A stretch of DNA of 64,000 bases from Arthrobacter cupressi (lineage in GTDB: Bacteria > Actinomycetota > Actinomycetes > Actinomycetales > Micrococcaceae), in assembly GCF_900099975.1 (NCBI RefSeq), contig NZ_FNEI01000002.1:159872-223871 (forward strand). The letters are read 5' to 3'. This document shows, piece after piece, positions 39,597 to 42,538 of this stretch. How positions within the stretch are numbered: position 1 is the first letter of the stretch; every line of letters begins with the position of its first letter. The notes under the pieces are model-generated. The model was given only the letters and a program-made list of their open reading frames with translations, searched no databases and was not told the origin of the DNA. The translations under genes were made by a program, and so were the position numbers.

Positions 39597-40532
39597 ATGA
39601 CCGAAGTCAACGCCGGCGGTTTCGCCGCCGAAACGATCGACCTTCCGGGCTGGACCCACGTCTACTCGGGCAAGGTCCGCGACCTCTACGTCCCGGCCGA
39701 CGAATCCATCAGGGAAAAGATGGGCCAGGACTGCGTCCTGGTGGTGGCCAGCGACCGCATCAGCGCCTACGACCACGTGCTCTCCAGCGAAATCCCGGAC
39801 AAGGGGCGCATCCTCACCCAGCTGAGCCTGTGGTGGTTCGAGCAGCTCGGCGTGGAGCACCACGTGCTGGCCTCCACCGTGGCCGGCGGTGTTCCCGAAG
39901 CCGTGGATGGCCGGGCCATGATCTGCAAGAAGCTGGACATGTTCCCGGTGGAATGCATCGCCCGCGGCTATCTCACCGGCTCCGGCCTGGCCGAATACAA
40001 GCAGTCCCGCACCGTGTGCAGCATCCCACTGCCGGAAGGCCTGGTTGACGGTTCCCGCCTGGACGAGGCCATCTTCACGCCCTCCGCCAAGGCCGAGGTG
40101 GGCGAGCACGACGAAAACATTACCTTCGAGGCCGTGGTGGACGCCGTCGGTCCGGACGTCGCCGAACGGCTGCGCGAACTCACCCTCGCCATCTACACCA
40201 AGGCCGAGGAGATCGCCCGCGGCCGCGGCATCATCCTGGCCGACACCAAAGTGGAGTTCGGCGTGGACGCGGCCAGCGGCGTCATCACCCTGGGCGACGA
40301 GGTCCTCACCCCGGACTCCTCGCGCTTCTGGGATGCCGCCAGCTACGAGCCGGGCAAGGCGCAGCCGTCCTTCGACAAGCAGTACGTCCGCGACTGGCTG
40401 ACTTCCGCCGAATCCGGTTGGGACCGCGCCTCCGACACGCCGCCGCCCGCGCTGCCGGCCGACGTCGTGGAACGCACCCGCGCCCGCTACGTCGAGGCCT
40501 ACGAGAAGCTCACCGGACGCACCTTCGTCTGA
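39597..40532 (+). CDS. purC: SAICAR synthase (phosphoribosylaminoimidazole-succinocarboxamide synthase)
   Basis: The 311-residue enzyme adds aspartate to CAIR in purine synthesis. It shows YSGKVRDLYVP, VVASDRISAYDHVLSSEIPDKG, KKLDMFPVECIARGYLTGSG and ILADTKVEFG, all family hallmarks. It is co-transcribed with purD and ends at a strong terminator shared with the convergent XRE-TPR gene. Confidence 0.97.
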   Translation: MTEVNAGGFAAETIDLPGWTHVYSGKVRDLYVPADESIREKMGQDCVLVVASDRISAYDHVLSSEIPDKGRILTQLSLWWFEQLGVEHHVLASTVAGGVPEAVDGRAMICKKLDMFPVECIARGYLTGSGLAEYKQSRTVCSIPLPEGLVDGSRLDEAIFTPSAKAEVGEHDENITFEAVVDAVGPDVAERLRELTLAIYTKAEEIARGRGIILADTKVEFGVDAASGVITLGDEVLTPDSSRFWDAASYEPGKAQPSFDKQYVRDWLTSAESGWDRASDTPPPALPADVVERTRARYVEAYEKLTGRTFV

Positions 40533-40592: not shown

Positions 40593-41870
40593 TTACTTGC
40601 CGGAGTTCGCCGTATGGCTGGCTGCCTGGGCGCGCCGTTCGGCAAGACGGATTTCCAGCAGCGAGTCCATGGCCTGCTGGACGCGGTCGGCAGCGCCCGC
40701 GGCGGTGAAGTCGGCCTGGGCTTCCTCCAGGTACACCAGGGCGTCCGCGTTTTCGCCGGCGGCCTTGAGCGCCTTGCCGAGGAGGAAGGACACCTCGCCG
40801 GCGGTGTGCCGGGCCAGCTCGGCGCGGTCCGCGTGGATTTCCCGGAGCTTGGCGACGGCAGCCAGGATGTCCCCCGTGAGGTAAAGCCAGCGGGCCCGGA
40901 TGAACGCCACTTCCAGTTGGTCGGTCTTGTTGCCGCCCACGATCGACAAGGCAAGTTCGGCGCGTTCGATTGCCGACAGTGTTTCGGGTTCCACGATGCC
41001 CGAGGACAGCCGCACGGCCGCCGAGGCCTTGTTGAATCGGGCCCAGAGTTCGATGTCATTCGCGGGGGAGAGCAGCTTTGCCGCGCGCTCGTGGTGCTTG
41101 ATGCCCTCGGCGTAGTCGTGCCGCATGAACGCCACGTTGCCCACCACCCAGGCGACCTCGCCGGCGAGCTGGGACATGGAGTGCTCGTCCATCTGCGCCA
41201 TCATGGATTCGCAATACTTCCAGGCCTCGTCCAGCTTGCCGCTTTCGGCCAGCGCACCGATGAGCGCCCGGTGGGCGCCGATGATGAGCGTGGAGCCTTT
41301 GGGGAGCTGCAGGCTGAGCTGGACGGCCTCGGTGGCGTGTTCGACGGCGGTGGCCAGCTGCCCCTGCCCATGGCAGACCGCCGCGAGCATCTGACGGGCA
41401 CGAACCCCGAGGCCCGCGGATTCGGTGGCCATGGGGTGCTCCAGGAGGTGCTGGATGATCTTCTGGCACTCCTTGAGCTGGCCCTGCTTCATGACGCATT
41501 CGGCCTGCATATAGGTCATGTTCCACCACGCGCTGGTGTTGCGGGCTTCCAAGGCGATCTGCGCCGCGGCGGCGGCGTGGCTGGCGGCCAAGGGGTAGTC
41601 CCTAAGGTCCCAGGCTTGCCGGGCGTAGAGGCCGGCGAGAACATACTCGGCGTCGCTGACGGATACGGGATGGCTCCAGGCTTCCAGCGCCTTGGGCGCC
41701 AGCTCGAGCCGGCGGGCCAGTTCTTCAATGACCTCGGCAGTGGGTTCGCGGCGGCCGGTTTCCAGGAGGGAAATATAACTGGGAGAATAGAGGTCCTTGC
41801 CGAGCTCGGCCTGGGTCAGACCTCGTTCGAGCCGCTCGGCACGGAGCTTTTCTCCGAATCCGTTGCCCAC
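40593..41870 (-). CDS. XRE-family regulator with C-terminal TPR repeats (RRNPP-like)
   Basis: The 425-residue protein has an N-terminal helix-turn-helix (FGEKLRAERLERGLTQAELGKDLYSPSYISLLETGRREP, about 6-43) followed by helical repeats of TPR type over the remaining 350 residues (for example GQLATAVEHATEAVQLSLQLP, YAEGIKHHERAAKLLS, NADALVYLEEAQADF). HTH plus TPR and the length match the peptide-responsive RRNPP regulators such as NprR. The GTG start has AGGAGG at good distance. It is divergent, across 140 bp, from a small secreted repeat-peptide gene, its probable target and ligand source. RRNPP assignment is by architecture, not by alignment. Confidence 0.88.
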   Translation of the reverse strand: MGNGFGEKLRAERLERGLTQAELGKDLYSPSYISLLETGRREPTAEVIEELARRLELAPKALEAWSHPVSVSDAEYVLAGLYARQAWDLRDYPLAASHAAAAAQIALEARNTSAWWNMTYMQAECVMKQGQLKECQKIIQHLLEHPMATESAGLGVRARQMLAAVCHGQGQLATAVEHATEAVQLSLQLPKGSTLIIGAHRALIGALAESGKLDEAWKYCESMMAQMDEHSMSQLAGEVAWVVGNVAFMRHDYAEGIKHHERAAKLLSPANDIELWARFNKASAAVRLSSGIVEPETLSAIERAELALSIVGGNKTDQLEVAFIRARWLYLTGDILAAVAKLREIHADRAELARHTAGEVSFLLGKALKAAGENADALVYLEEAQADFTAAGAADRVQQAMDSLLEIRLAERRAQAASHTANSGK

Positions 41871-41918
41871 CGCGTCCTCCTAGATATGCCGCTTTAGCGC
41901 CGTCTTTCCGGGTGACCC

Positions 41919-41958
41919 TTGACAGCCTCTGTGGAAAACATTTTACAATGTGTGTCAA
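41919..41958. promoter_or_regulatory. Promoter and candidate operator of the repeat-peptide gene
   Basis: TTGACA (41919-41924) and TACAAT (41944-41949), with a long 19-bp spacer, form a promoter facing the peptide gene. The dyad ACATTTTACAATGT (41938-41951) overlaps the -10 element, and TTGACA/TGTCAA (41919-41924 and 41953-41958) form an outer inverted repeat. A long spacer plus dyads is what one expects of a promoter that needs a regulator; the XRE-TPR protein is the obvious candidate. Confidence 0.55.
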
Positions 41959-42010
41959 CAGGGACCGCACTAATTTCCATAACGAATCCGACTCGCATCG
42001 AGGGAAAACC

Positions 42011-42262
42011 ATGTTCAAGAAGATCGCTGCATCTGTCGCCTTGGCGGGCGCACTTGCATTCACGGCCGCGGCTCCGGCCGTCATCTCTGCAGCCCCTGTA
42101 GCAGACGCTGTCCATACGGTACTCAGCATCGGAAACTGGCCCGATCCCATGCGCACCCAGGCTATCGGCAACTGGCCTGATCCGATGCGCGCGCAGGCTA
42201 TCGGGAACTGGCCTGATCCGATGCGCGTTTCGGCCATCGGCAACTGGCCTGACCCCATGTAA
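42011..42262 (+). CDS. Secreted pre-propeptide with four IGNWPDPM repeats (putative peptide pheromone precursor)
   Basis: The 83-residue product has a Sec signal peptide (MFKKIAASVALAGALAFTAAAPA, cleavage likely after residue 27 or 34). Four identical octapeptides IGNWPDPM follow at 40-47, 52-59, 64-71 and 76-83, separated by RTQA, RAQA and RVSA; the last copy ends exactly at the stop codon. Each copy is preceded by a small-x-small tripeptide (VLS, TQA, AQA, VSA) that fits signal-peptidase-like cleavage, and followed by Arg, which fits trypsin-like cleavage. GAGGGA precedes the ATG. No enzyme domain is possible. With the divergent XRE-TPR regulator it looks like a signalling peptide precursor; a repeat bacteriocin or adhesive peptide is the alternative. 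Confidence 0.85.
   Translation: MFKKIAASVALAGALAFTAAAPAVISAAPVADAVHTVLSIGNWPDPMRTQAIGNWPDPMRAQAIGNWPDPMRVSAIGNWPDPM
42128..42259 (+). repeat. Four 36-bp tandem repeats encoding IGNWPDPM
   Basis: Copies begin at 42128, 42164, 42200 and 42236 (the last only 24 bp). They differ at third codon positions: Gly GGA/GGC/GGG/GGC, first Pro CCC/CCT/CCT/CCT, Asp GAT/GAT/GAT/GAC, second Pro CCC/CCG/CCG/CCC, with no amino-acid change in the octapeptide, whereas the linkers do change residues. Confidence 0.95.
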
Positions 42263-42278
42263 TATTCAAATCATTTGA

Positions 42279-42319
42279 GAAATCACCCCGGCGTCTGGGC
42301 GCCGGGGTGATTTCTTTTT
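42279..42319 (+). terminator. Intrinsic terminator of the peptide gene
   Basis: A 15-bp stem GAAATCACCCCGGCG with its exact complement, 6-nt loop, followed by TTTTT, 17 bp after the stop. The short monocistronic transcript should be about 350 nt. Confidence 0.93.

Positions 42320-42461: not shown

Positions 42462-42538
<77 letters not shown>

Follow-up and report, generated by a model that had tools for sequence, protein, structure and literature searches.

A candidate peptide-pheromone unit in Arthrobacter cupressi: an HTH-TPR regulator divergent from a four-copy GNWPDPM precursor

In the RRNPP(A) systems of Bacillota (PlcR-PapR, NprR-NprX, Rgg-SHP and AimR-AimP), a small propeptide is encoded next to a TPR receptor that often has an N-terminal HTH, and the pair of genes described here has the same layout. 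The available part of one survey delimits RRNPP systems by a propeptide of 10-100 aa, Sec export, a receptor of 250-500 aa, TPRs and adjacent genes; according to that partial text, the survey covered Firmicutes and viruses only, and actinobacterial signals are typically small molecules (PMC10075063). RRNPP pheromones of 5-10 aa, and Bacillota propeptides with one to four pheromone repeats such as Rap3T/Phr3T, are described in the accessible portion of PMC11343458. Multiple copies alone are therefore not novel, which corrects a first-pass annotation of this DNA that took such precursors usually to carry one peptide. Leaderless communication peptides are also known from Firmicutes, in the LCP-RopB system (PMC10518010, accessible portion). 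For actinobacteria, the Arthrobacter entry in the available part of a 2016 quorum-sensing review lists LuxR-like, AAA and REC domains, not peptides (PMC4748050), and a word search of PMC9765709 and PMC12700828 found no mention of actinobacteria. In the literature searched, which included few subscription papers and no bioRxiv preprints, we found no description of an actinobacterial RRNPP-type member, of this GxWP code or of a pheromone both exported and made in leaderless form; the first-pass annotation likewise named no described actinobacterial system with this peptide.

The regulator and precursor genes of the window

The pair lies in the window, the stretch of 64,000 nucleotides of A. cupressi DNA that was analysed; it is flanked by purC (39597-40532, our own reading of the gene) on one side and by a gene for tRNA-Pro (42462-42538) on the other. 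The features are:

40593..41870, minus strand: HTH-TPR regulator, likely peptide receptor; 425 aa, GTG start (profile matches and structure model)
41676..41864, minus strand: HTH domain, residues 3-65 (profile matches and structure model)
40698..41660, minus strand: TPR superhelix, residues 71-391, predicted peptide-binding region; eight helix pairs (our own count) and a capping helix
41919..41958, no strand: operator-like inverted repeat TTGACA-N28-TGTCAA (conservation across loci)
41938..41951, no strand: inner palindrome, sequence ACATTTTACAATGT; the putative -10 of the peptide gene overlaps it
42011..42262, plus strand: precursor gene, ATG start, 83 aa; signal-peptide-like start and four cores
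42011..42094, plus strand: presumed signal peptide, residues 1-28 (judged by eye)
42128..42151, plus strand: core 1, IGNWPDPM, exact
42164..42187, plus strand: core 2, IGNWPDPM, exact
42200..42223, plus strand: core 3, IGNWPDPM, exact
42236..42259, plus strand: core 4, IGNWPDPM, exact; the final M is the C-terminus
42277..42316, plus strand: terminator-like hairpin of 18 pairs, 3' of the precursor gene (structure scan)

The precursor begins with a basic-hydrophobic stretch that by eye resembles a signal peptide, and its 83 residues carry four exact copies of IGNWPDPM, so that its description as a four-copy precursor with a signal-peptide-like start was confirmed. It had also been said to consist of a signal peptide, four octapeptides and nothing else. 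The octapeptides and a signal-peptide-like start are there, but a linker of about 11 residues separates the presumed cleavage site from the repeats, and four-residue spacers (RTQA, RAQA and RVSA) lie between the cores. The four cores differ from one another by synonymous changes only (pS 0.58, pN 0), which, together with the 0 matches of the reversed GNWPDPM pattern in 295 genomes, argues that they are more than chance. No Pfam or NCBIfam model matched the precursor at cut-off. The first-pass annotation gave the gene its own promoter and terminator; a terminator-like hairpin follows it (two terminator-like sites in the stretch scanned, against 0.9 +/- 0.9 in shuffles), and the scan for a standard sigma-70 promoter returned 0 (shuffles 0.5). 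TTGACA and TACAAT are both present, but 19 nt apart by our own count.

The coordinates and length of the divergent 425-residue HTH plus TPR regulator, and the 140 nt between the two start codons, were all reproduced. The protein matched HTH_31 (45.6 bits) and HTH_3 (43.2), and fell just below the cut-off with TPR_12 (29.7 bits, cut-off 30.1). Its structure model (pLDDT 89.2) shows an HTH and a TPR superhelix, as in the RRNPP(A) receptors; the PDB matches of the model, solved TPR proteins, include NprR, RapI and PlcR, and animal TPRs outscore NprR among them. RNPP_C scored 12.8 bits against a cut-off of 26.5, that is, no sequence-level RRNPP match. The likeness to RRNPP regulators proposed earlier is one of architecture and length (425 aa, HTH plus TPR fold); homology to them is not evident by sequence. 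Four of the five features given in the partial text of PMC10075063 were found here (propeptide of 83 aa, receptor of 425 aa, TPRs, adjacent divergent genes), and Sec export was judged by eye. The Arthrobacter pair differs from RRNPP(A) in belonging to another phylum, with no more than generic HTH/TPR homology recognisable by sequence, and in the GxWP core, an inverted repeat with arms 34 nt apart and leaderless copies at separate loci.

Pairing, core code and intergenic element in relatives

A protein search with the precursor gave 396 relatives at E<=10, of which the best 120 were listed; the named organisms among the matches listed are Arthrobacter, Pseudarthrobacter, Paenarthrobacter and Sinomonas. 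By eye, GNWPDPM is near-invariant among these relatives whereas the spacers vary. One of them, P0101 of Arthrobacter sp. 92, is an 80-aa protein with four IGNWPDPMRAR-like units in which we saw no signal peptide by eye. The precursor of L063, from genus g7, is identical to P0088 of Sinomonas atrocyanea, and we therefore take g7 to be Sinomonas.

The linkage check in family genomes supported the pairing. The exact GNWPDPM pattern occurred in 36 of 295 family genomes and adjoined an orthologous regulator in 36/36, and a regulator homologue at E<=1e-30 was present in 136 of the 295. A search from the regulator side found a divergent precursor at 80/80 named Arthrobacter, Pseudarthrobacter and Paenarthrobacter regulator loci, with a signal-peptide-like N-terminus by eye in all 80 (the best 80 of 295 candidates). 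Copies at the 80 named loci were counted as exact G[NW]WP, so that L153, with three GIWPDPM and one GNWPDPM, scored 1.

For the comparison of receptor types we used a working set of 101 regulator homologues (89 HTH-TPR and 12 TPR-only), a sample of profile-search matches from which six duplicate loci were excluded. We discarded a spurious script match in L131 and assigned the peptides of L094, L126 and L135 by hand. A detectable peptide gene accompanied 50 of the 89 HTH-TPR rows and was absent from 39; with the 12/12 TPR-only rows that have one, the regulator is not consistently found without a peptide neighbour, the outcome that had been named as speaking against the system. In the 101-row tree, the 39 peptide-less rows form one well-supported clade of 19 (L097, L098, L100, L103, L104, L106, L111, L115-L124, L129 and L139) and 20 paralogues or distant rows. 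The clade of 19 looks like one loss, judging from the tree, and its members are possibly solo receptors, eavesdroppers or degenerate. In genus g32, 4/4 sampled regulator rows lack a peptide. Among fetched regulators at least 53% identical to the window protein, 41 have a peptide and two do not (L101 and L102, the latter shortened). The peptides of L126 and L128 lack a clear signal peptide. The regulator-peptide family is narrow: a regulator turned up in 13/198 order-sample genomes at E<=1e-30 and, at E<=1e-25, in 4/396 genomes sampled across the phylum. L247, the sole same-class phylum match outside the order, showed no repeat peptide among the ORFs listed.

Conservation is concentrated in the core. 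Taken without any motif requirement, the last eight residues of 81 precursors (the window's and those of the named loci, the 80 best among 295 candidates) read xGNWPDPx in 77/81 and TGIWPDPM in one, with no terminal core in three, and the corresponding codons gave pS 0.61 and pN 0.10. Repeat-like stretches other than GNWPDP occur in 8/81 precursors, indicating some core decay. Cores compared within genes gave pS 0.546 and pN 0.005, a low pN that is partly built in because the GNWPDP motif served to choose the stretches. For the three codons that follow the first core, pN/pS was 1.29; they are not aligned homologues, and the value shows only spacer freedom. Spacers between cores are 2 to 24 residues long. 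A conserved core amid free spacers would be expected of a precursor whose core is excised for use and whose spacers are lost.

The core also changes with the regulator. At about 67% regulator identity, we found VGNWPDP with S, A, T or F as the next residue; at 60%, VGIWPNS; at 53-57%, VGNWPDA, TGNWPN, PGIWPD, PGNWPD and VWIWPD; and at 38-48%, VGEWPH, VGNWPDR and VGDWPH, the last in as many as eight copies. In the 101-row regulator tree core types largely track branches, and GNWPD recurs on several. Tandem copies are shared with Phr propeptides such as Rap3T/Phr3T, for which the available part of PMC11343458 gives one to four; unlike those, the precursors described here are actinobacterial and reach eight copies (L112, L113). 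In another family of the same order (f17), L234 of genome G369 has a signal-like precursor with three TVGGSWPT that faces a distant regulator, whose place in the tree is unsure.

Between the divergent genes, the inverted repeat TTGACA-N28-TGTCAA surrounds TTTACAAT. It is exact in 80/80 named loci (the top 80 among 295 candidates), and within 2 mismatches it is present in 46/50 HTH-TPR rows with a peptide, 1/39 HTH-TPR rows without one, 0/12 TPR-only rows and about 0.5% of shuffled sequence. The inner palindrome ACATTTTACAATGT was exact at 56/80 of the same named loci (again the top 80 among 295 candidates), with one mismatch at 23 and two at one. The inverted repeat thus accompanies HTH and peptide where the two occur together. 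As it overlaps the putative -10 of the precursor promoter, it probably serves the regulator as operator. At up to 2 mismatches ACATTTTACAATGT has a single place in the window genome (the reversed control also gave 1), and at up to 1 mismatch it occurs in 92/101 genus genomes, once in 87 and twice in 5. These searches revealed no regulon beyond the system's own promoter, and no second conserved copy of the inverted-repeat element was seen.

TPR-only receptors and leaderless copies of the core

Some homologues of the regulator consist of the TPR part alone. They were listed by the start position of the profile match and then checked against Pfam, which gave no HTH match in 11/11 scanned. A peptide gene lies alongside in 12/12 working-set rows and in 5/5 further cases (L305-L309); at L135 it is located between two tandem TPR-only genes. 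The peptides are short, secreted-looking by eye and usually of the form GWWP[NHD]. The window genome has such a pair outside the window (L142, G000:C19:104038-105021 region), a TPR-only gene with a signal-like precursor carrying GGWWPH, GGWWPH and GGWWPN; this paralogue matched nothing in Pfam at E<=0.1. The HTH-less receptor beside a secreted-looking peptide recalls Rap-Phr. The TPR-only branch has its homologues, however, in the HTH-TPR receptors described here; its likeness to Rap is one of architecture, and no sequence link to Rap was seen. That TPR-only genes keep a peptide gene argues for the TPR domain as the peptide's receptor, since without a DNA-binding domain there is no gene-regulatory reason for the association; the tracking of pairs with both HTH and peptide by the inverted repeat argues in the same direction.

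Away from the regulator, 13/36 pattern-bearing genomes carry GNWPDPM as well, at 16 places in total. By eye, 12 of these are small ORFs without a signal peptide, three, in g7, have a signal-like start, and L069 is unclear; the latter adjoins a masked stretch and was left out. Two leaderless ORFs have just 11 codons (MYSIGNWPDPM and MSSIGNWPDPM). In g7, the mini-ORFs at L077:3317 and L080:3276 (MSSIGNWPDPM, MYSIGNWPDPM) lie near a putative isocitrate dehydrogenase gene (our own reading), and L078, L079 and L081, single-copy GNWPDPM ORFs with a signal-like start away from the regulator, have a similar upstream stretch (cattgaaact..., gaggcggctgggag...). The off-locus ORFs L067, L068 and L078 are near genes that by eye resemble those of PRC-barrel stress proteins.

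Within the window's own genus, the leaderless ORF often starts 77-91 nt after a gene whose product has the C-terminal tail FDPGSSPD; the Shine-Dalgarno stretch CAGTCAGGAGAA is present in most cases. A search with the FDPGSSPD tail, in which the peptide was not used as query, found the tail in 20/121 genomes and a leaderless [IV]GNWPDPM ORF in 20/20. The protein itself, encoded outside the window (L066:4416-5408, minus strand; L248-L267), is proline-rich and signal-like, with an oddly conserved tail, and the own-genome copy matched nothing in Pfam at E<=0.1. In the leaderless ORFs the codons flanking the core vary freely; the cores gave pS 0.613 and pN 0.032, a low pN again partly built in by picking stretches by motif.

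The residue before GNWPDPM agreed between the leaderless ORF and the same genome's precursor in 19/19 FDPGSSPD genomes (13 I/I, 6 V/V), the precursor of the twentieth, G958, being outside this count; the chance of such agreement is 4e-5 if the genomes were independent, which, being related, they are not. Concordance also extends to G887 (T, mixed cores), G244, G217 and G009, and one g7 leaderless ORF, L076, is discordant (V, against I in the precursor). A search for GNWPDPA matched 27/206 genomes, and of five off-locus matches inspected, four lay in no plausible ORF, serving as a chance control, and one was the leaderless ORF of G887 (L323), with the cores VGNWPDPA, TGNWPDPM and TGNWPNH; the precursor of that genome has TGNWPDPM. 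In three genomes a leaderless ORF carries a GWWP motif, the last residue of which is that of the genome's own TPR-only peptide in 3/3 (G957 H/H, G244 D/D, G123 N/N). These agreements show one peptide code maintained at two separate loci. Judging from this pattern, the leaderless ORFs are likely an internal ligand source tied to expression of the proline-rich protein; an antagonist role is equally plausible. In LCP-RopB, the leaderless peptide gene adjoins the receptor gene. The leaderless GNWPDPM ORFs, unlike it, are away from the receptor gene and follow another protein gene, and they duplicate a peptide that is also made with a signal-peptide precursor.

Mechanism and alternatives

Pairing, core conservation, the TPR-only branch and the inverted repeat all support the peptide-pheromone system that the first-pass annotation had put forward as a candidate. 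We consider it probable that the divergent pair is a pheromone unit working like the RRNPP systems of Bacillota, with a cytoplasmic peptide source in addition. On this model, secretion and cleavage of the precursor would release about four copies of (I)GNWPDPM, a peptide of 7-8 residues; cells would take it up again, e.g. by an OppA-like route, and the TPR domain of the neighbouring HTH regulator would bind it. Nine OppA-like SBP_bac_5 proteins are encoded in the window genome; the family is common, being present in 11/14 control genomes. The predicted site of action of the regulator is TTGACA-N28-TGTCAA, from which it would govern the precursor promoter; the peptide would be the switch, activating or repressing. 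The leaderless mini-ORFs after the FDPGSSPD gene would feed the receptor from inside.

Possibly, the peptide is instead a secreted effector on other cells, an antimicrobial or a community signal, whose gene the HTH-TPR protein controls without itself being a receptor for the peptide. The peptide promoter is the only strong operator-like place, as such a reading would have it, and 39/89 HTH-TPR rows have no peptide. However, the HTH-less homologues keep their peptide gene (12/12 and 5/5), leaderless copies bear the genome's own pheromone residues and core types track regulator branches in part, and we regard an effector as unlikely. The leaderless ORF that follows the FDPGSSPD gene in 20/20 genomes could also be the whole source of ligand, the TPR protein binding GNWPDPM made in the cytoplasm and the exported precursor mainly removing or storing peptide. 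Against this, the receptor-linked gene is signal-peptide-like by eye in 80/80 (the best 80 of 295 candidates) and off-locus GNWPDPM occurs in only 13/36 pattern-bearing genomes, which makes it a quite improbable arrangement. Short ORFs that stop at the core, including two of 11 codons, would suit a ribosome-arrest or leader peptide acting in cis on translation. Such a role is hardly credible: terminator-like hairpins follow the precursor and, by eye, several leaderless ORFs, leaving no evident target gene downstream, and tandem copies and linkage to TPR genes would be unexplained.

On the reading as a pheromone unit, the Micrococcaceae may have an RRNPP-like language of their own, with HTH-TPR and Rap-like TPR-only receptors, each with a GxWP pheromone, and with public exported and private leaderless channels; we give this wider picture an even chance. 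Sensing of pheromones inside the cell by TPR receptors is known from Bacillota, and here it would extend to a coherent actinobacterial family in common soil bacteria. The readable peptide codes offer ready synthetic peptides, receptors and operators for testing. If true, the encoding of one pheromone in an exported and in an internal form would be a new signalling logic.
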